Source: Chelativorans sp. J32 (GTDB lineage: Bacteria; Pseudomonadota; Alphaproteobacteria; Rhizobiales; Rhizobiaceae). Taken from it: a DNA stretch of 64,000 nucleotides. Positions 3,935 to 59,746 of the stretch are shown piece by piece. Under the pieces are notes generated by a model that did not search any database, was not told where the DNA came from, and was given only the letters and a program-made list of their open reading frames with translations. The DNA lies in assembly GCF_000518985.1 (NCBI RefSeq), contig NZ_JAEQ01000002.1, positions 62,001 through 126,000 on the forward strand, given 5' to 3'. Each line of letters starts with the position of its first letter. Position 1 is the first letter of the stretch. A program made the position numbers and the translations under genes.

Positions 3935-4831
3935 TCACGATTTGTAATTTCCCGCTGTCTCGGCGATCTCTTTCCGGAGCCAAGCCTTGATCTTCACCTT
4001 TTTGGCTTCCGGCCGGTTCTTCGAAGTGACCAGGAAATAGCCGAACCTTGTTCTGGCAAGTTCCTTGAATGGCCGTACCAAGAGTCCGGCCGCGAGAGCA
4101 TCATGGGCAAGCGTTTGCCAGGCGAGCATCACTCCCTGACCCGCGATCGCTGCGTCGAGCGCCAGCGAAGCGTCGGTGAAGCTGTTTCCTTCCCACATGT
4201 CTTGCTCAGTCAGGCCGAAGGGATCCAGCCATATGTCCCAGCTGATCGTTGAATTCGCGTCACGCACCACCGGGACATCAAGAATGTCCCGCGGTTCGCG
4301 AAGCCGTTCCAAAAGGGCCGGTGCGCAGACGGGAAAGACCTCCTGAGCCAGGACGAATTCTGCATTGACGCCAGGCCATCCGCCTTCGCCGACACGGATT
4401 GCAAGGTCGACATCGGACGCGTCGAGATTGACGAGTGAAACAGACGCATCGAGCCGCAACCGCAGCTCTGGGTGGAGGGCCGAAAAGCGAGAAAGTCTCG
4501 GCACCAGCCATTTCGAAGCAAAAACAGGCGCCACCGAGATGGTGAGAACGGTATCGGCCCCGCCGCGTGATAGCGCCACCGCCTCGTCCAGCTTTCCGAA
4601 GCCCTCGTTGAGAAGGCCCGCCATCCGCATTCCGAATGGCGTGGGCCGCAACCCTCGTCCAGTGCGCTCAAACAGCAATCTTCCAAGCTGTTCTTCGCAG
4701 CGGATGAGGTGCTGGCTGACCGCTCCAACGGTCACGCCGAGCTCGGCAGCTGCGGCCGAGAGCGAGCCGAGCCGCAGCACCGCTTCTACAGCGCGCAGGG
4801 CATTGAGATGAACCTGGTTCAAATTTCTCAT
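3935..4831 (-). CDS. LysR-family regulator, GcvA-like
   Basis: 298 residues. The N-terminal winged helix-turn-helix is clear (LNALRAVEAVLRLGSLSAAAAELGVTVGAVSQHLIRCEEQLGRLLFER, residues about 9-56) and is followed by a periplasmic-binding-like effector domain. The wording of the helix-turn-helix (VGAVSQH) and FxRTGRGLRPTPFG resemble GcvA-type regulators. Such regulators usually control a divergent neighbour; here the divergent neighbour is the small gene at 4924-5115, about 90 bp away, which is the best candidate target. The effector cannot be read from sequence. Confidence 0.9.
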   Translation of the reverse strand: MRNLNQVHLNALRAVEAVLRLGSLSAAAAELGVTVGAVSQHLIRCEEQLGRLLFERTGRGLRPTPFGMRMAGLLNEGFGKLDEAVALSRGGADTVLTISVAPVFASKWLVPRLSRFSALHPELRLRLDASVSLVNLDASDVDLAIRVGEGGWPGVNAEFVLAQEVFPVCAPALLERLREPRDILDVPVVRDANSTISWDIWLDPFGLTEQDMWEGNSFTDASLALDAAIAGQGVMLAWQTLAHDALAAGLLVRPFKELARTRFGYFLVTSKNRPEAKKVKIKAWLRKEIAETAGNYKS

Positions 4832-4923
4832 GCAGTTTTTCTATAGCATGGCTCACGCAATCTGCATTGCGATCGGGCCGTTTAGGCGAGATTATAAGGA
4901 TAAGGAACTTGGAGGACCAGGAG

Positions 4924-5115
4924 ATGATGAAGCTTTTCTTGAGCGCTGCCGCATATCTCCCCCGGTCCCGGAGGGAATTCCTCGCCGCTTCGGCTCATCT
5001 CGACGAGCAGGAACATTGGCGACGTGATCCGCTCTCCCATCCCGCGATAGCGGCAATGAGCCAGCGGGACTTGGCGGACTTACCGCTCCGGCCAACCAAT
5101 CTCGGCAGTTGCTGA
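4924..5115 (+). CDS. Small protein divergent from LysR regulator
   Basis: 63 residues starting MMKLFLSAAAYLPRSRREF. The start is chosen because GGAGGACCAGGAG sits directly before the ATGATG pair. The protein has a basic N-terminal half and a C-terminal HPAIAAMSQRDLADLPL segment that resembles the tail of short DUF1127-like proteins. Function is unknown. It is divergent from the GcvA-like LysR gene, the classic arrangement of a LysR regulator and its target. It is too short for certainty, but the ribosome-binding site and context support it as real. Confidence 0.6.
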   Translation: MMKLFLSAAAYLPRSRREFLAASAHLDEQEHWRRDPLSHPAIAAMSQRDLADLPLRPTNLGSC

Positions 5116-5188
5116 GGAGGCCGGAGCTATAGGTCCGCGATGGACGGGGCTTCGCCTAGATCGAGATATCATCATAGGGAAAATCGAC

Positions 5189-7072
5189 CTATTCCGCAGC
5201 GAGACGGCCATCCAGGAACCCGCCGGACTGGCGCTTCCACAGTTGGGCATAGAGTCCGTTGCGGCGAATGAGGTCTTCGTGCGTGCCTTCCTCGACGATA
5301 CGCCCGCGATCCAGCACGATCACGCGGTCGAGTGCGGCGACGGTCGAAAGGCGGTGCGCGATCGCGATCACCGTCTTTCCCTCCATCAGGCCCTCAAGAT
5401 TTTCTTGGATTGCCGCTTCGATTTCCGAATCCAGCGAGGACGTCGCTTCGTCCAGGATGAGGATCGGCGCATTCTTCAGCATCATGCGTGCGATCGCCAC
5501 GCGCTGGCGTTGGCCGCCCGAGAGCTTGACGCCCCGCTCGCCTACATGGGCATCATAACCGGTGCGTCCGGCAGGATCGCGGACGCCGAGGATGAAATCA
5601 TGCGCGCGGGCGCGCTTCGCCGCCGCTATGATTTCCGCGTCGCTTGCTCCGGGCCGGCCATATGCGATGTTGTCGCGGATGGAGCGATGCATCAGGATGG
5701 GTTCCTGGCTCACAACACCGAACTGGCCGCGCAGCGAGGCTTGCGTCACATCCCTGATGTCCTGGCCGTCGAGAAGGATACGGCCGCTCTCCACGTCGAA
5801 GAGACGCAGCATCAGATTGATGATGGTCGTCTTGCCGGCCCCCGAAGGCCCGACCAGCGCAACGCGTTCGCCCGGCCGGATATGAAGGTTCAATCCTTCA
5901 ATGATCCCGCCTTCGCGGCCATAATGGAAAGAGACATTCTCGGAGCGGAGATCGCCTTTGGCAGGCGGTATAACGCGCGCATCGGGCGCGTCTCGAATTG
6001 CAGGTGGACGGGAGATCGTACCGGTCGCATCCTGCACGGTGGCGTAGGACCGAATGAGCCCGTTGATGTTGAACATAACATAGCCGGACATCTGGTTCAG
6101 CCTGAACATGAGGCCCATTACGGTGGCAATCTCGCCGGTGCTGGCGCTCCCGTTCATCCAGCTTGCGACGGAGAGTGCGCCGACTGCCGTGATCATGATG
6201 CCGTTGATGATGGTTATTGCCGCACGCACCCGCGTGATCGCACGGCCGAGCGCCCAAATGGCGTTGAGCAGGTTCGCCATGCTCTCGCGAACATAGCCGT
6301 GTTCACGCCGGCCGCTGTCGAACAGCTTGACAGCCATGATGTTTGTGAAAGCGTCGACCATACGGCCGTTCATCGCCGAGCGCTCGTCGGCCGTGCGCCG
6401 CCCCGCCCGCCGCAATGGCGGCAGGAGCAGGCGAGCGAGCGTGAGATAGGAGGCGAACCAGACCAGGAGCACCACGCCCATCAAGGGATCGAGGGTGGCC
6501 AGGATGGTGCCGGCCAGCACGAAGAATGTGAGGAAGCTCCACATGGTCTGGAGCGAGGAGGTTATGAAATCGCCGGTGGCTTCCGCGCCCTGGAGGATCT
6601 TCGTCGCGATCCGGCCCGCGAAGTCGTTCTGGTAGAATTCGTAGGGCTGCTCCATAACCCGCCGGAAGGCCTGCCAGCGTACACGCTGATAGAAGGCTGG
6701 CGAGATCACCTGCTGTTCCATCACGGTATTTGCGATCATTACCAGCGAGCGCACGACGAGCACAAAGAAGGCAAGCGCTGCCAATTGTACCCAGTGCTCC
6801 GAAAGCAAATCTGCCGGCGAGGTGCGGTCGAGCAGATCCACCAGCCACCCGAGCGCCCAGTAAAGTCCGGCGTCGACCGTGGCCGACAGTGCTCCCGCGA
6901 TCAGGAGCAGAATGAAAGGCAGTTTGGCCTGTTTCGCGAAGAATAGGATGAAATCCCGGGCGTTTTCCGGCAGCACCTCCCGGTCGGTATCGCCGAAGGG
7001 GTCTATCGCCCCTTCGGCATGTCGCCAGAGCCGGTCTCCGAGATCCTTCCTGAGGTCTTCTTCTGCGCTCAC
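5189..7072 (-). CDS. ABC exporter half-transporter (TMD-NBD fusion), second of pair
   Basis: 627 residues from a GTG start that overlaps the stop of the upstream transporter (GTGA); a longer in-frame start at 7126 lies inside the upstream gene and is less likely. Six membrane segments fill roughly residues 55-330. The nucleotide-binding domain has Walker A GPSGAGKTT, the signature LSGGQRQR, Walker B ILILDEATSSLD and the H-loop IAHRLS. This is the MsbA/Atm1-like exporter type. Translational coupling to the preceding half-transporter and near-identical C-terminal LYAQLW..RQSGGFL segments suggest that the two form a heterodimer. The substrate is unknown. Confidence 0.93.
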   Translation of the reverse strand: MSAEEDLRKDLGDRLWRHAEGAIDPFGDTDREVLPENARDFILFFAKQAKLPFILLLIAGALSATVDAGLYWALGWLVDLLDRTSPADLLSEHWVQLAALAFFVLVVRSLVMIANTVMEQQVISPAFYQRVRWQAFRRVMEQPYEFYQNDFAGRIATKILQGAEATGDFITSSLQTMWSFLTFFVLAGTILATLDPLMGVVLLVWFASYLTLARLLLPPLRRAGRRTADERSAMNGRMVDAFTNIMAVKLFDSGRREHGYVRESMANLLNAIWALGRAITRVRAAITIINGIMITAVGALSVASWMNGSASTGEIATVMGLMFRLNQMSGYVMFNINGLIRSYATVQDATGTISRPPAIRDAPDARVIPPAKGDLRSENVSFHYGREGGIIEGLNLHIRPGERVALVGPSGAGKTTIINLMLRLFDVESGRILLDGQDIRDVTQASLRGQFGVVSQEPILMHRSIRDNIAYGRPGASDAEIIAAAKRARAHDFILGVRDPAGRTGYDAHVGERGVKLSGGQRQRVAIARMMLKNAPILILDEATSSLDSEIEAAIQENLEGLMEGKTVIAIAHRLSTVAALDRVIVLDRGRIVEEGTHEDLIRRNGLYAQLWKRQSGGFLDGRLAAE

Positions 7073-8916
7073 TCGGCTGCCTCCGCGGGATCCAGCTCGA
7101 GAAAGCCGCCGGATTGCCGATGCCAAAGCTGTGCATAGAGCCCGCCTCTGGCTATCAGATCGTCATGCGTGCCCTGTTCGATGATGCGGCCGGCGTCCAT
7201 CACCACCAGCCGATCCATGGCGGCGATTGTGGAAAGTCTGTGAGCGATGGCAATCACGGTTTTCCCTTCCATCAGGCGGTACAGGTTTTCCTGGATCGCT
7301 GCCTCCACCTCGGAATCGAGCGCCGAGGTCGCTTCGTCCAGGATCAGGATGGGCGCATCTTTCAGCATAACGCGGGCGATCGCGATGCGCTGCCTCTGGC
7401 CCCCGGAAAGCTTGACGCCGCGCTCGCCCACATGGGCGTCGAAGCCTGTACGCCCCTTGATATCGCGCAGGCTGGGGATGAAATCCAGTGCGGCAGCGTT
7501 TTCCGCGGCCGCCCTCACCATTTCGTCATCGGCGTCCGGCCGGCCATAGAGGATGTTGTCGCGCACCGAGCGATGCAGCAGAGAGGTGTCCTGCGTCACC
7601 ATCCCGATCTGCGCGCGAAGCGAATCCTGGGTGACCCGCGAGATGTCCGCCCCGTCGATCAGTATGCGACCTCCTTCGAGATCATAGAAGCGGAGCAGCA
7701 GGTTGACGAGCGTGGATTTGCCCGCTCCCGAACGGCCGACGAGACCCACTTTCTCCCCTGGCCGGATCGTCAACGAGAGGTCCTCGATCACGCCGCCTTT
7801 CTTGCCATAGTGGAAGCGGATGTTTTCGAAGGCGATCTCGCCCCTGGTGACCTTCAACTCCGTTGCATCGGGCCGATCTTCCACGACGCGCGGTTTCGAT
7901 ATGGAGCCGATGCCGTCCTGCACGGTGCCGATATTCTCGAAGAGCATCGTCATCTCCCACATGATCCACTGGGACATGCCCCAGAGCCGCATCACCAGCG
8001 CAATCACCACGGCCACCGCGCCGACGCTGACGATCTCGTTCAGCCACAGCCAAAGCGACAATGCCCCAACGACGAACAGGCAGAGCGAGTTCAGCATATA
8101 GAGCAGGCCGTAAAGGCTCGTGATCAGGCGCATCTGCCGGAAGACCGTATCCAGGAAGCCGGTCATCGCCGACCGCGCAAAGCTCGCCTCCCGGCGCGCA
8201 TGGGAAAAGAGCTTCACCGTCTGGATGTTCGTGTAGCTGTCGACAATGCGCCCCGTCATGAGCGAGCGTGCGTCGGCCTGCTCCTGGGCCACGCTTCCCA
8301 AACGCGGGATGAAGTAGCGCAGAAGCAGGATATAGCAGACGATCCAGGCGAGGAGCGGCGCGGCAAGGCGAATATCCGCCGAAGCCGCTATTACCAGCAT
8401 ACCGGTGAAATAGACCGCGACATAGTTGAACACGTCGATCAGCTTGATCACGCATTCGCGCACGGCGAGTGCCGTCTGCATCATCTTGGTAGCGATGCGG
8501 CCCGCAAACTCATCCTGATAAAAGGTCATCGACTGGTTCAGGAGATAGCGATGCACCTGCCAGCGGATGCGCATGGGGTAATTGCCCATCAGCGTCTGGT
8601 GCAGCATCAGAGAGTGCAGCCAGACGACGACGGGCAGGAAGACGAGCACGATGGCGGCCATGCCGGCCAGTTTCCAGCCCTCGGTCTGAAGGAAGGTTTC
8701 CCGATCGTGCTGCGACAGCCAATCGACGATATTGCCTAGGAAGGAGAACATCCCGACTTCGACGATCGCGATCGTTGCTGAAAGCACTGCCGAAATCGCG
8801 ATAAACGGCCACAGCCCTCGCGTATAATGAAGGCAGAAGCCGACAAGGGTCCTCGGCGGCTCCTGCGGTTCTTCGGCGGGAAAGGGCTCTAGCCTTTTTT
8901 CAAACCAATGGAACAT
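7069..8916 (-). CDS. ABC exporter half-transporter (TMD-NBD fusion), first of pair
   Basis: 615 residues. A transmembrane domain spans residues about 35-320, and the ATPase domain has Walker A GRSGAGKST, signature LSGGQRQR, Walker B ILILDEATSALD and H-loop IAHRLS, so the ATP-binding site motifs look canonical in this subunit as well as in its partner. The architecture is that of MsbA/Atm1-like exporters. The downstream half-transporter begins in its stop codon. A small protein gene of unknown function ends 16 bp downstream of this start on the same strand (8933-9211), so all three could share a transcript. Substrate unknown. Confidence 0.93.
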   Translation of the reverse strand: MFHWFEKRLEPFPAEEPQEPPRTLVGFCLHYTRGLWPFIAISAVLSATIAIVEVGMFSFLGNIVDWLSQHDRETFLQTEGWKLAGMAAIVLVFLPVVVWLHSLMLHQTLMGNYPMRIRWQVHRYLLNQSMTFYQDEFAGRIATKMMQTALAVRECVIKLIDVFNYVAVYFTGMLVIAASADIRLAAPLLAWIVCYILLLRYFIPRLGSVAQEQADARSLMTGRIVDSYTNIQTVKLFSHARREASFARSAMTGFLDTVFRQMRLITSLYGLLYMLNSLCLFVVGALSLWLWLNEIVSVGAVAVVIALVMRLWGMSQWIMWEMTMLFENIGTVQDGIGSISKPRVVEDRPDATELKVTRGEIAFENIRFHYGKKGGVIEDLSLTIRPGEKVGLVGRSGAGKSTLVNLLLRFYDLEGGRILIDGADISRVTQDSLRAQIGMVTQDTSLLHRSVRDNILYGRPDADDEMVRAAAENAAALDFIPSLRDIKGRTGFDAHVGERGVKLSGGQRQRIAIARVMLKDAPILILDEATSALDSEVEAAIQENLYRLMEGKTVIAIAHRLSTIAAMDRLVVMDAGRIIEQGTHDDLIARGGLYAQLWHRQSGGFLELDPAEAAE

Positions 8917-55175: not shown

Positions 55176-55649
55176 ATGAATAAGGTCCCAATGACCCTGG
55201 CTGGATACGAGTCGCTGAAGGAAGAATTGCGCTGGCGCCAGCAGGAAGAGCGGCCGCGGATCATCGAGGCGATTGCAGAAGCCCGAGCGCACGGAGACCT
55301 GTCCGAAAATGCCGAATATCACGCGGCCAAGGAGGCTCAGAGCCTCAATGAGGGCCGCATCAGCGAACTTGAGGACCTGATCGCGCGCGCCGAGGTCATC
55401 GACGTGAGCAAGCTTTCCGGTGATACCGTCAAGTTCGGGGCAACCGTCGTTCTCGTTGACGAGGATACGGAAGAGGAAAAGACCTATCAGATCGTTGGCG
55501 ATCAGGAAGCCGACGTGAAGTCGGGCCGCATTTCGATCTCCTCGCCCATCGCGCGGGCGCTGATCGGGAAGGGTGTCGGCGATTCCGTCGAGGTCAACGC
55601 GCCCGGCGGCGCGCGCGGCTACGAGGTTTTGCGCGTCCAGTACGGCTGA
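55176..55649 (+). CDS. greA: Transcription elongation factor GreA
   Basis: 157 residues starting [55 protein letters not shown]. The coiled-coil tip with acidic residues (GDLSENAEY) and the C-terminal FKBP-like domain ([19 protein letters not shown]) are present. GreA stimulates RNA cleavage in stalled RNA polymerase. GGAAGG precedes the ATG. Eleven bases after its stop starts the core mannosyltransferase-like gene; the leader carries a terminator-like hairpin. Confidence 0.97.
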
Positions 55650-55659
55650 GCCGACGAAG

Positions 55660-56748
55660 ATGGGGGCTCTTGCCGGCCGGGCTTCCGCCGCCGGTCACCT
55701 GGATGTTCGCAACGTGGAGGTGGTGGCGCCCAATCTGAAGCGCCGCCTCTCCGGCGTCACGAGCACGATCATCCAGCTTATTCCGCTTCAGGCGCAGGAT
55801 CTTGGGATCGCCAGCTTCGGCCTCGGCCTGCCGCCGAGCCTGCCCAAAATGCGCTGGTGGCAGCTTCCGGCGCTGCTCCGGCGGCCGGCGGGAAAACCTT
55901 TCCGCATCTGGCATGCACGCCGAAACGTGGAGATGGTCGCCGGCCTCATCCTCAGGGATGTCTTCCGCGCCCCATTGCGCATCCTTTTTACCTCTGCCGC
56001 TCAACGCCATCACAAGCCCTTCACGCGTTTTCTCATCCGCCGCATGGATGCGGTGGTGGCCACCAGCACCCGCTCCGGCTCCTTTCTCGAGGTGCCCCAT
56101 CGGGTGATCATGCACGGGGTGGATACTGAACGCTTTCATCCGCCCCAAAATGCCGACGATTTATGGGCTGCCACGGGTTTGCCCGGTCGTTACGGCATCG
56201 GGTGCTTCGGCCGCATAAGGCATCAGAAGGGTACGGATCTCTTCGTCGATGCGATGATCGAGCTTTTGCCGCGCTATCCGGACTGGACCGCAGTTGTTCT
56301 CGGTCGTGCGACAGCGGAACATAGGGCGTTTGCGGAGGAGCTGGAGCGCCGCGTGCGCGAGGCAGGTCTTTCAGACAGAATTCGCTTTCTCGGCGAGGTG
56401 CCGGATGTTCGTCCGTGGTACCGGCGGCTCAGCCTTTATGTCGCCCCCTCGCGAAACGAAGGGTTCGGATTGACGCCGCTCGAGGCGATGGCGTCTGAAA
56501 CCGCCGTCGTCGCCAGCGATGCCGGCGCCTATGCCGAACTGGTCGTTGGGGGGGAGACCGGAATGGTGGTGCCTGCGGATGATGGTCCGGTGCTTGTCAG
56601 CGCGATCGAGCCCTATCTGGCCGATCCCGCCCTTGCCGAGCGGCAGGGAACAGCCGGCCGCGCGCATGTCGTGAACCGCTTCGCTTTGGCCAGCGAGGCC
56701 GCTGCACTGCGGGAGGTTTACGAAAGCTTGTGGAGGAAGGGGCGGTGA
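55660..56748 (+). CDS. lpcC: GT4-family lipopolysaccharide core mannosyltransferase, LpcC/WadC-like
   Basis: 362 residues starting MGALAGRASAAGHLDVRNVEVVAPNLKRRLSGVTSTIIQL. The GT4 GPGTP-like donor site is seen as GRIRHQKGTDLFVDAMIELL and NEGFGLTPLEAMASETAVVASDAGA, with E-x7-E. In Rhizobium LpcC and Brucella WadC, such enzymes mannosylate the inner lipopolysaccharide core, and I recall wadC lying near greA and the trxB region as here. The next gene overlaps it by GTGA. Core assignment is by family and context. Confidence 0.85.
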   Translation: MGALAGRASAAGHLDVRNVEVVAPNLKRRLSGVTSTIIQLIPLQAQDLGIASFGLGLPPSLPKMRWWQLPALLRRPAGKPFRIWHARRNVEMVAGLILRDVFRAPLRILFTSAAQRHHKPFTRFLIRRMDAVVATSTRSGSFLEVPHRVIMHGVDTERFHPPQNADDLWAATGLPGRYGIGCFGRIRHQKGTDLFVDAMIELLPRYPDWTAVVLGRATAEHRAFAEELERRVREAGLSDRIRFLGEVPDVRPWYRRLSLYVAPSRNEGFGLTPLEAMASETAVVASDAGAYAELVVGGETGMVVPADDGPVLVSAIEPYLADPALAERQGTAGRAHVVNRFALASEAAALREVYESLWRKGR

Positions 56749-57485
56749 AAGCCGAAGCCTTTGTCATCCATCTCGCACGGGCTCAAGGCCGCGCGCCGCA
56801 GGTCGAACGTTTGTGCAAAACCCTGCCGATGCCCGTGACGGTGATCAACGCGATCGACGCCGAAACGCTCTCGGATCAGGAGATCGCGCGGGTTTACAGG
56901 CCTGGGCTTCATCGGCCGCATTATCCCTTTTCCCTCCGCCGGACCGAGATCGCCTGCTTTCTGTCCCATCGCAGAGCTTGGCAGATGATCCTGGATCGCG
57001 GCCTCGATGCTGCTCTCATCATAGAGGACGACGTGGAGCCCATGCCGGAGTTCCAGGGCTTGCTTCAGCATGCCTTGACCAGTGCGGGCAGGGGGGATTT
57101 CCTTCGCTTCCCGAAGAAGGCGAGGGAGCGGGGTCCTACAATGGCCGAAGAGGGGCCAGCTCGCATCTTCGTTCCTCGTTCCGTGGCCCTCGGCATGCAG
57201 GCCCAGCTCGTCGGCCGCGATGCCGCGGGCGAATTGCTCGCCTTCACGCGCGAGTTCGACCGCCCAGTCGATACGATCATCCAGATGCGCTGGTTGCATG
57301 GTGTAAGCATCCTGAGCTCTTCGCCCGTCGCGGTGCGAGAAGTGGCGGCTGAGCTTGGCGGCACGACGGTTCAGAAGAAGAACAAGCGGCTCGGCGAGAC
57401 CTTGCGTCGGGAGGTAGGCCGCGCTTATTACCGTCTGGCGCTCCAGGGCTTCAACAAGCTTCATTCCCGTTCGGTCAGGAACTGA
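56745..57485 (+). CDS. GT25-family glycosyltransferase
   Basis: 246 residues from GTG (MKAEAFVIHLARAQGRAPQVERLCKTL), chosen because GGAGGAAGG precedes it and it overlaps the lpcC stop (GTGA). GT25 motifs: INAIDA, IEDDVEPMPEF and FRRTEIACFLSHRRAW. Such enzymes add galactose or glucose to lipopolysaccharide core or O-antigen. It overlaps the next gene by one base (A of the stop/start). Sugar specificity unknown. Confidence 0.88.
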   Translation: MKAEAFVIHLARAQGRAPQVERLCKTLPMPVTVINAIDAETLSDQEIARVYRPGLHRPHYPFSLRRTEIACFLSHRRAWQMILDRGLDAALIIEDDVEPMPEFQGLLQHALTSAGRGDFLRFPKKARERGPTMAEEGPARIFVPRSVALGMQAQLVGRDAAGELLAFTREFDRPVDTIIQMRWLHGVSILSSSPVAVREVAAELGGTTVQKKNKRLGETLRREVGRAYYRLALQGFNKLHSRSVRN

Positions 57486-58159
57486 TGACAAGAAAGAGAC
57501 TGTTCATCATCGGCAACGGACGCGTGCCCTTCGACATGTCGGAGCAGGTGGATTCGAGCGATCATGTGGTGCGGTTCAACGAGCCGAAACAATCGATCGG
57601 CATGACCGGCACCAAGACGACATGGCTCTTCGTCGCCAATTCCGGAAAACCCATGCAGCGGCGTCTGGAGGATCCCAAATATCCGACATCGCCGATCGTG
57701 CAGGCCACCGATCTGGTTTTTCTCGCTTATCACCCCCAGATCGTGCGCAAATATTTCAAGAAGCCGAATTTTCTCTCCTGGCTCGGCGGTCGGCGGGCCG
57801 ACTGGACCAAGGCGGCAATGGCCATGTTTGCCGAGGCCGGCAAGGCGGTCGCTCTGCTCCCTCCTTCAAATTATGAGGCAGGCTGCGCAGAGCTTGGCCT
57901 GACCCGTGAAATGATGCGGAGCGTGTTTCCAAGCACTGGATATTTCGGTATCCGGTATGCACTCGAACGGCTGCCAGCTGAAGAATGGGATGTGGAGATC
58001 GCCGGCTTTTCATGGGAAGGGTGGCGGCGCCATGCCTGGGGCGACGAACGGGCCTGGGTGATGCGCAAGGTTGAAGAGCGCAATATCCGAGTATGGCTGG
58101 CGGATGACGGCGGGGCGAACTCGAAGGAAAGGGACAGAGAAGATGGACAGAAGGCTTGA
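57485..58159 (+). CDS. GT29-like sialyltransferase-motif protein
   Basis: 224 residues starting MTRKRLFIIGNGRVPFDMSE. Three motifs of GT29 sialyltransferases are visible: L-type (IIGNG at 8-12, VDSSDHVVRFNEP at 22-34), S-type (FPSTGYFGIRYALE at 148-161), and VS-type His-x4-Glu (H183, E188). The donor is expected to be a CMP-sugar; Kdo as CMP-Kdo is the likeliest in this setting, by analogy with plant GT29 enzymes (inference). It overlaps the next gene by 17 bp and follows the GT25 gene directly. Homologues are sometimes labelled urease-accessory, which I think is uninformative. Confidence 0.75.
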   Translation: MTRKRLFIIGNGRVPFDMSEQVDSSDHVVRFNEPKQSIGMTGTKTTWLFVANSGKPMQRRLEDPKYPTSPIVQATDLVFLAYHPQIVRKYFKKPNFLSWLGGRRADWTKAAMAMFAEAGKAVALLPPSNYEAGCAELGLTREMMRSVFPSTGYFGIRYALERLPAEEWDVEIAGFSWEGWRRHAWGDERAWVMRKVEERNIRVWLADDGGANSKERDREDGQKA

Positions 58160-58844
58160 CGTCTACATCGGCTGGGATTCACGCGAGCCGATCGCCTATG
58201 AGGTCGCAAGAAAGACCCTGCTCGAAAGAGCGAGCATCCCGGTCGAAGTGCATCCGATCAAGCTTTCCGATCTGGTGGAGAAGGGCGCTTACACGCGGGA
58301 TATCGACCCGCTCGCGTCGACGGAGTTCACCTATTCGCGCTTCTTCACGCCCTGGCTTGCCGGATACCAGGGATGGGCGCTGTTCTGCGATTGCGACTTC
58401 CTGTTTCTCGACGACGTTGCCAAGCTGCTCGATTATCGCGACCCTTCCAAGGCGGTGCTCTGCGTAAAACACGATTATACGCCGAAGGCCACCGTGAAGA
58501 TGGACGGCAAGGTTCAGACCACTTATCCGCGCAAGAACTGGTCGTCCTTCATGCTTTTCAACTGCGAGCATCCCTCGACCAGAACGCTTACACCGGAGGT
58601 GATCAACCGGGAGACCGGTGCTTATCTTCACCGCATGCAGTGGGCTCAGGATGAGGAAATCGGTGGAATCCCGGAGACCTGGAACTGGCTGGAAGGCTGG
58701 AGCGAGAAGCCGGCCACCGGAACCCCCAGCGCCATCCACTTCACCAATGGCGGCCCATGGTTCAAGGATTGGCAGGAAGTCGATTATGCCGATCTCTGGA
58801 AGGCGGAAGCCTCCAGGGTGGATCCTGACTGGAAGCCGATTTAG
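58143..58844 (+). CDS. GT8-like glycosyltransferase
   Basis: 233 residues starting MDRRLDVYIGWDSREPIAYEVARKTLLERA, with AAGGAAAGGG upstream inside the previous gene. The DxD metal site is in WALFCDCDFLFLDD at about residue 75. LDVYIGWDSREPIAYEV and the late WAQDEEIGGIPETWNWLEGW are those of a family of small glycosyltransferases often left as hypothetical. Last in the plus-strand core run lpcC-GT25-GT29-GT8. Acceptor not known. Confidence 0.8.
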   Translation: MDRRLDVYIGWDSREPIAYEVARKTLLERASIPVEVHPIKLSDLVEKGAYTRDIDPLASTEFTYSRFFTPWLAGYQGWALFCDCDFLFLDDVAKLLDYRDPSKAVLCVKHDYTPKATVKMDGKVQTTYPRKNWSSFMLFNCEHPSTRTLTPEVINRETGAYLHRMQWAQDEEIGGIPETWNWLEGWSEKPATGTPSAIHFTNGGPWFKDWQEVDYADLWKAEASRVDPDWKPI

Positions 58845-58975: not shown

Positions 58976-59746
58976 TTATCGGAAACGAATTTTTTCGTGC
59001 GATAGGAGTTGATGCAGATTCCGGAGAGGCTTGACGGACTCGTGCGCTAATTTTTCCACGAGACTCCGATCGCGCTTTCGAAGCACCCTGTCGGCCTTCA
59101 AACCAGATCGGAGATAAGGCTCTGTCTTATCGAGGCCCATATTCTTTCCGGGAATACAGGGGGCCGGAATGACCTGATAGACGGTCAGCTGAGCGAAATG
59201 CGGGGAGCCTTCGCTAAACAGGAACTCGTCTACCGGATCTCGAAAACCTTCCGACAGGTCGAGGAGACGTGCCGCCGCTTGTTTGGAGATGACGTAGGCG
59301 GCGGTACCCATTTGCGTGCTTAACAGCCTCGCGACACGCCGGCCGAAATGCCTTTCCGCTGGCCGACCGAGCTTGGCTCTCTTCAGGCGTGTTTCGAGCC
59401 GTACCAAGTCACTATCAGCTGGTATCCAGTCGGTTGAGGAAAGGAACGGCTTCAGCCCGTCGGAGAAGTGCACGTCGTCTTCGAAGATTGCTGCGTAAGT
59501 CGCATCGGATGAAACGATTTCGCGCCAGATCTTCCGATGGCTTTCAAAGCAAGCGACCGCGCCCGGTCCGATAACGGCGCCGTAGAAGCTCAACGGCATC
59601 TTCTCCGCTCGCGCGATGATTGCCGGATCGTTCTTGTCGACCGCAGTGACCCGCGTCCAGGCGATGCCGAATTGTCGGCCGAGGCGCTCCATACGTGCCC
59701 AGCGCTCTACATCGCGGTCGAGATTGATCACATAGGCTGTCAGCAT
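58976..59746 (-). CDS. GT25-family glycosyltransferase
   Basis: 256 residues starting MLTAYVINLDRDVERWARMERLGRQFG. GT25 motifs: VINLDRDVERW, VTAVDKND, ACFESHRKIW and IFEDDVHFSDG. It is convergent with the plus-strand core run and likely acts in the same lipopolysaccharide or surface-glycan pathway. It is the second GT25 protein of this region, with distant similarity to the one at 56745-57485. Substrate not known. Confidence 0.88.
   Translation of the reverse strand: MLTAYVINLDRDVERWARMERLGRQFGIAWTRVTAVDKNDPAIIARAEKMPLSFYGAVIGPGAVACFESHRKIWREIVSSDATYAAIFEDDVHFSDGLKPFLSSTDWIPADSDLVRLETRLKRAKLGRPAERHFGRRVARLLSTQMGTAAYVISKQAAARLLDLSEGFRDPVDEFLFSEGSPHFAQLTVYQVIPAPCIPGKNMGLDKTEPYLRSGLKADRVLRKRDRSLVEKLAHESVKPLRNLHQLLSHEKIRFR

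Follow-up and report, generated by a model that had tools for sequence, protein, structure and literature searches.

A compact GT29-like protein encoded in a putative lipopolysaccharide locus of Chelativorans is a candidate CMP-Kdo transferase

The open reading frame at 57485-58159 of the window (the whole stretch of 64,000 nucleotides from Chelativorans sp. J32 that was analysed) encodes a GT29-like protein that may transfer Kdo rather than sialic acid. The protein is predicted to be a compact, unanchored glycosyltransferase that has a GT29/GT42-class fold and an inverting mechanism. It would move Kdo from CMP-beta-Kdo onto a sugar of the lipopolysaccharide (LPS) core in the cytoplasm. CMP and the ulosonate would be bound by the L- and S-like motifs, while the acceptor hydroxyl would lose its proton to H183 in the VS-like motif. 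The core would thereby gain alpha-Kdo as a branch or an extension. The GT8-like protein encoded by the adjacent gene would act on the same intermediate. We regard this mechanism as a whole, with donor and acceptor linked, as somewhat probable. The features of the locus and the evidence for each of them are listed below.

57485..58159, forward strand: GT29-like glycosyltransferase of 224 amino acids (translation, family and fold comparisons)
57500..57622, forward strand: sialylmotif-L-like stretch, residues 6-46, IIGN...VDSSDHVVRFNEP...GTKT (family profile alignment with weak scores, and invariant residues)
57926..58009, forward strand: sialylmotif-S-like stretch, residues 148-175, FPSTG...AGF (invariant residues and ST3Gal1 alignment)
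58031..58048, forward strand: VS-like motif H183-x4-E188 with the presumed catalytic base (both residues invariant, n=41)
58143..58844, forward strand: GT8-like glycosyltransferase partner (Pfam GT8 below cut-off, adjacency, and natural fusion in L003/L008)
56730..57485, forward strand: GT25-family glycosyltransferase (Pfam GT25, E 2.1e-19)
55573..56748, forward strand: GT4 glycosyltransferase in the position of Sinorhizobium lpsB (Pfam Glyco_trans_1_4, E 4.4e-33)
55176..55649, forward strand: greA (NCBIfam GreA, 262.7 bits against a cut-off of 167)
58976..59746, reverse strand: second GT25-family glycosyltransferase, convergent (Pfam GT25, E 4.4e-28)

The gene order is greA, GT4, GT25, the GT29-like gene, and the GT8-like gene. 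The GT29-like open reading frame is translated into 224 residues without an internal stop. Its ATG overlaps the stop codon of the upstream GT25 gene (TGATG) and the GT8-like gene starts inside its last 17 nt. The GT29-like gene thus looks to be translated within an operon because genes overlap it on both sides. The listed start of the GT4 open reading frame overlaps greA and the true start is probably located further 3'. The lipopolysaccharide-cluster setting claimed in the initial annotation is supported, as the GT29-like gene belongs to a glycosyltransferase operon beside greA and GT4 that resembles the Sinorhizobium greA-lpsB locus (PMC3788101). The lpsB name for the GT4 gene is taken from gene order only (PMC3788101). 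The Sinorhizobium greA-lpsB-lpsCDE genes are described as an LPS locus (PMC3788101), and this locus supports, by gene order only, a putative LPS setting for the GT29-like gene. We consider the LPS core quite probable as the acceptor, and the GT29-like protein is a candidate for adding extra Kdo to the cores of Chelativorans and its relatives.

The acceptor could also be a glycan other than the LPS core (capsule, exopolysaccharide, or glycolipid) if the GT29-like and GT8-like genes constitute a movable two-gene module. The pair is kept with no greA, GT4, or GT25 neighbour seen at two loci, L025 (flanks of about 6 kb) and L020 (flanks of 1.5 kb), and the homologues of clade C lie beside other glycosyltransferase-like ORFs. 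However, the window and L001-L003 have the gene inside the greA-GT4-GT25 operon, and we judge such an acceptor to be unlikely. Homologues are partly found away from the LPS locus, for example on a Phyllobacterium plasmid. A plasmid of Rhizobium tropici CIAT 899 also carries a homologue, with 46.9% identity. Both the GT29-like gene and its GT8-like partner are missing in two genomes of the same genus (G090 and G167), hence the GT29-like gene is not essential to the genus.

The GT8-like gene is present in the retrieved flank at 19 of the 22 distinct homologous loci, where window copies are excluded and L008 is counted with L003. It was not seen at L006, L022, and L023, where the flanks cover 1.5 kb. 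In Chelativorans sp. ZYF759, the GT29-like and GT8-like proteins are fused in one ORF of 454 residues (L003:6001-7362; the same protein at L008:766-2127 on the reverse strand). The 27 genomes assigned to clade A are those with matches at 43% identity or above among 199 genomes of the family, and the surveys of the GT29-like gene, NeuB, and the GT8-like gene are treated as one set of 199 genomes since their genome identifiers agree. A GT8-like protein with at least 65% identity is found in 20/27 clade-A genomes compared with 6/172 others (Fisher p 1.1e-16, with shared ancestry ignored). GT8-like proteins of any identity (E<=1e-30) are found in 55/199 genomes, which consist of 20/27 clade-A genomes and 35/172 others. 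The partner itself matches Pfam GT8 at E 0.0038, which is below the cut-off, and has no NCBIfam match. At the loci that hold both genes, conservation is higher for the GT8-like protein (73-90%) than for the adjacent GT29-like one (52-74%).

The family assignment was made with single proteins and with two alignments, A1 (23 rows) and A2 (41 family members, including the 224-aa protein). The sole match in the single-protein Pfam scan is GT29 (PF00777) with 10.9 bits against a cut-off of 23 (E 0.29). Ten relatives were scanned singly, and four of them exceed the 23-bit GT29 cut-off (L012 with 29.9, L031 with 27.3, L030 with 25.2, and L054 with 24.1 bits) while the other six score 14.6-22.3 bits. 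No GT42 match was obtained in the Pfam scans of the protein and its relatives. At E<=1, PF00777 matches 20/23 members of A1 (best 1.1e-7). The A1 profile acquired seven PDB matches at E<=10, six of which are GT29 sialyltransferases; the best E is 0.011 and none is below 0.001.

When A2 is compared by hhalign with four bacterial proteins that exceed the Pfam GT29 cut-off, the score is 119.7 (E 5.6e-18). With a fifth above-cut-off protein (L067) added, the score is 109.0 (E 3.5e-16). As controls, the columns of the four-row set, without L067, were shuffled 60 times, which gave scores of at most 18.4, and alignments of eight further gene families from the locus score at most 24.0. The single hhalign pairs are uneven, with E 1.6e-12 for L065, 5.7e-8 for L028, and 1.0e-7 for L066, and the weaker pairs (L064 with 9.5e-6 and L067 with 8.7e-6) cover just 33-34 columns.

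The NCBIfam scan of the 224-aa protein and the phmmer search of this protein against the PDB returned no match, and the direct search of its own genome with PF00777 missed the GT29-like gene. These misses indicate that a search with one sequence or with the family profile alone is not sensitive enough in this case. The whole-genome search with the 224-aa protein identified relatives in 70/199 genomes of its family (E<=1e-5). PF00777 alone matches 1/289 genomes of the class (E<=1e-5) and 4/299 genomes of the phylum (E<=0.001). The A1 family profile matches 8/299 phylum genomes at E<=1e-6, including the genome of the protein itself.

The AlphaFold2 model that was built with A2 as the input has a pLDDT of 91.5 and a pTM of 0.87. 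In the Foldseek search against the PDB, the top nine rows are all GT29 and eight of them have E<=0.001, with TM values by query length of 0.47-0.53, which is on the low side. In the VIA-align list, rows 1-14 are GT29 structures (Z 10.9-12.7, rmsd 3.0-4.6, 162-181 residues), of which 13 are assigned by title and one (5cxy) is titled only 'Glycosyltransferase'. These rows include ST6GalNAc2 (Z 12.7, rmsd 3.5, 176 residues aligned), ST3Gal1 (12.4, 3.0, 163), ST6Gal1 (12.0, 3.5, 170), and ST8SiaIII (11.4, 4.0, 179), and the top structures include the CMP complexes 6apl and 2wnb. Rows 15-24 are bacterial sialyltransferases (Z 9.5-10.5), where the CstII-type (GT42) enzymes have Z 9.5-10.1. The next folds are HPPK and thiamine pyrophosphokinases with Z of at most 9.0, and the absence of a family from this list does not exclude that family. 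Based on this ranking, the modelled fold almost certainly belongs to the GT29/GT42 class and is closest to GT29. The initial annotation had suggested the comparison of an AlphaFold model with GT29 structures, with an unlike fold as the result that would speak against it; the model resembles GT29 structures best.

The resemblance of the motifs could have arisen by chance in an unrelated Rossmann-like protein. The single protein reaches only E 0.29 with PF00777 and has no phmmer match in the PDB, and other folds appear in the structural list from Z 9.0 down. On the other side are the profile and shuffle tests, the relatives above the Pfam cut-off, and the fold list that is led by GT29 and CstII-type enzymes. 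A chance match is therefore rejected as highly improbable. The GT29-type fold and motif order that had been proposed from the sequence are borne out by the profile comparisons and the predicted structure.

The motifs quoted in the initial annotation were located in the translation, with IIGNG at residue 8, VDSSDHVVRFNEP at 22, FPSTGYFGIRYALE at 148, and HAWGDE (H-x4-E) at 183. The L-, S-, and VS-like motifs are thus in the order that had been described within 224 aa. Thirteen residues are invariant in 41/41 members of A2 (G10, N11, R30, N32, G42, P149, G152, G174, F175, G179, W180, H183, and E188). They include H183 and the Asn of IIGNG (N11), the two residues whose conservation had been proposed as a check. 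The feature of sialylmotif L is present, with G10, N11, R30, N32, and G42 as its invariant residues, and the family profile aligns there with motif L of ST3Gal1 and ST6Gal1 with weak scores. The feature of sialylmotif S, with the invariant P149, G152, G174, and F175, is present as P-[ST]-[ST]-G followed by GF in 41/41 members and is aligned to YPSTG...YGF of ST3Gal1. The VS feature is present as H-x-[WF]-x2-E after GF in 41/41 members. The loose ordered motif chain fits 41/41 members, which were gathered by homology and hence are not independent.

H183 and E188 are aligned with the H-x4-E of L065, a bacterial protein of the GT29 type, and the profile alignment also matches them with the H-x4-E of a second such protein, L028. 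However, the ST3Gal1 alignment and the single L066 pair place H183 at a motif-III-like H-Y. These conflicting placements, in which H183 corresponds to the histidine of either VS or motif III, suggest that a merged III/VS region is possible. The motif III consensus is given as (H/y)-Y-(Y/W/F/h)-(D/E/q/g) (PMC8433944), and inspection of the 224-aa protein revealed no motif III between S and VS. A separate motif III would not fit, as only seven residues lie between GF (174-175) and H183. The protein is therefore a member of a divergent GT29-related subfamily and not a canonical GT29 member, because motif III is missing. Two of the three Arabidopsis GT29 proteins likewise lack motifs III and VS (PMC5811610). 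No transmembrane segment that could serve as an anchor was found in the 224-aa protein (the highest 19-residue hydropathy mean is 1.0). The cysteines of the L-S disulfide of animal enzymes are missing here, and the protein has one cysteine (C134).

The donor was approached through the gene content of the genome. No NeuB-type synthase was found in the assembled genome of the strain (E<=1e-10). CTP_transf_3 has six matches in this genome at E<=1, of which the three strongest were assigned. The strong match is KdsB (3-deoxy-manno-octulosonate cytidylyltransferase), with 401 bits against a cut-off of 281. The second is the isoprenoid enzyme IspDF, just over the family cut-off, and the third is a MocA-like transferase of the molybdenum-cofactor type. 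The genome also has one WaaA. The absence of sialic-acid genes that had been described for the window therefore extends to the whole assembled genome for NeuB and the CMP-transferase families. Sialic acid made by the strain itself is rejected as the donor, since NeuB was not found at E<=1e-10 and the sole CMP-ulosonate synthetase among the three strongest CTP_transf_3 matches is KdsB. For the same reasons CMP-Kdo would be the economical donor of the GT29-like protein, and on gene content we consider it probable.

A true sialyltransferase, or a transferase of another nonulosonic acid that uses CMP-Neu5Ac, CMP-Leg, or CMP-Pse, would also agree with the fold and the motifs. A NeuB-type synthase is present in 6/27 clade-A genomes and missing in the other 21/27, hence another CMP-ulosonate is possible as the donor in those six. 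However, NeuB and the GT29-like gene are not associated (6/27 against 35/172 other genomes, Fisher p 0.80). In the genome of the strain, NeuB was not found at E<=1e-10 and no second CMP-ulosonate synthetase was found among the assigned matches, and this activity is very unlikely for the 224-aa protein.

An enzyme of the GT29 fold could also use UDP- or another nucleotide sugar (hexose or uronic acid) in LPS core synthesis. The neighbouring genes encode glycosyltransferases of other families (GT4, GT25, and GT8-like). The plant GT29 protein GALT29A is reportedly a galactosyltransferase, hence the GT29 fold by itself is no proof that the donor carries CMP. Against such a donor, the invariant residues are largely within the L-, S-, and VS-like motifs, and motif L is described as chiefly donor-binding (PMC8433944). 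The CMP complexes among the best structural matches and the presence of KdsB, hence of CMP-Kdo, in the genome point in the same direction. A UDP- or other nucleotide-sugar donor of this kind thus appears unlikely, and CMP-Kdo is retained as the donor that we favour. Arabidopsis RCKT1 is a GT29 protein that is needed for Kdo on RG-II and has genetic support as a CMP-Kdo transferase (PMC11288761). Rhizobium LpcB (RL3439) has been called a CMP-Kdo transferase (PMC11103875).

Bacterial GT29-like proteins as such are already known, as 23 sequences were reported in 2018, of which 19 are alphaproteobacterial (PMC5811610). Those sequences are similar to the 224-aa protein in being proteobacterial and in lacking an anchor and the disulfide, but motif III was retrieved there and marine genera are named (PMC5811610). 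The animal GT29 enzymes (ST6GalNAc2, ST3Gal1, ST6Gal1, and ST8SiaIII) share the modelled fold class and the ordered L/S/VS-type motifs. Unlike them, the protein in this work consists of 224 aa with no anchor, a single cysteine, and no motif III, and no CMP-sialic acid supply was found. Arabidopsis RCKT1/MGP2 is also a GT29 protein from a setting with little or no sialic acid and is proposed as a CMP-beta-Kdo transferase for RG-II (PMC11288761). However, it is anchored and acts on pectin, whereas the Chelativorans protein is unanchored and encoded in a bacterial operon. The GT42 enzymes CstII and Cst-I are compact bacterial enzymes of the same fold class (Z 9.5-10.1), but their Z is lower than that of the GT29 rows and the Pfam match of the relatives is GT29. 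Two other Kdo transferases are different in predicted fold, as KdoT of Acinetobacter, a core Kdo transferase, is modelled as GT-B (PMC12856342) and WaaA (GT30) is predicted to have a GT-B fold (PMC5811610). Nothing on this family was noticed in the Brucella WadD paper (PMC6171495), and no assay of any bacterial GT29 protein was noticed in the accessible parts of the open-licence literature.

The tree of 45 rows exhibits three groups, A (with the GT29-like gene of the window), B, and C, each of which is set apart from the remaining rows by a well-supported branch. The branches of the outgroup rows are very long, hence the tree is treated as unrooted, and L030 may fall inside clade A. For clade B, 11 of the 25 plasmid records retrieved are annotated as 'urease (operon) accessory protein'. 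Thirteen distinct clade-B loci were considered, where nine are placed by the tree and the other four (L026, L027, L052, and L053) are assigned because they share 49-61% identity with the protein of Sinorhizobium meliloti. Unexpectedly, the clade-B gene sits between ureB-LprI and ureC of rhizobial urease operons at ten of them, which are listed below.

Urease-operon clade-B loci: L024:5983-6633 (Sinorhizobium meliloti pSymB), L039, L041-L043, L045, L047, L048, L052, L053

The exceptions are L026 (which has the label without the operon), L027, and L046. The clade-B rows of A2 keep the motif residues, and what is annotated as 'urease operon accessory protein' is a GT29-type homologue. The suggestion that such a label hides this family thus applies to the sister clade B, but the label is not simply misleading as it mostly reflects true urease-operon linkage (10/13). 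No paper on a 'urease operon accessory protein' was found in the open-licence literature. In clade C, the two loci inspected (L037 and L038, about 4600-7600) have the gene near ORFs that read as glycosyltransferases from their sequences, which suggests another glycan cluster as the setting.

A more far-reaching but less probable reading is that these clades constitute a rhizobial radiation (at least three clades) of small GT29-type enzymes that use CMP-Kdo and not sialic acid. One clade would build the LPS core together with the GT8-like protein, another would belong to different glycan clusters, and a third would have been taken into the urease operon for a glycosylation task. Eukaryotic GT29 has been proposed as inherited from proteobacteria (PMC5811610). 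If the root of GT29 lies among the rhizobial enzymes, the animal sialyltransferases and the plant Kdo transferases would derive from bacterial Kdo transferases. The role of GT29 before sialic acid becomes testable with the Chelativorans protein, which is small and unanchored, has a single obvious candidate donor, and is encoded in a defined operon. A diverged homologue with 32% identity, which is above the Pfam GT29 cut-off, is also present at L030:3717-4358 on the reverse strand in a genome of about 1.5 Mb (G111).
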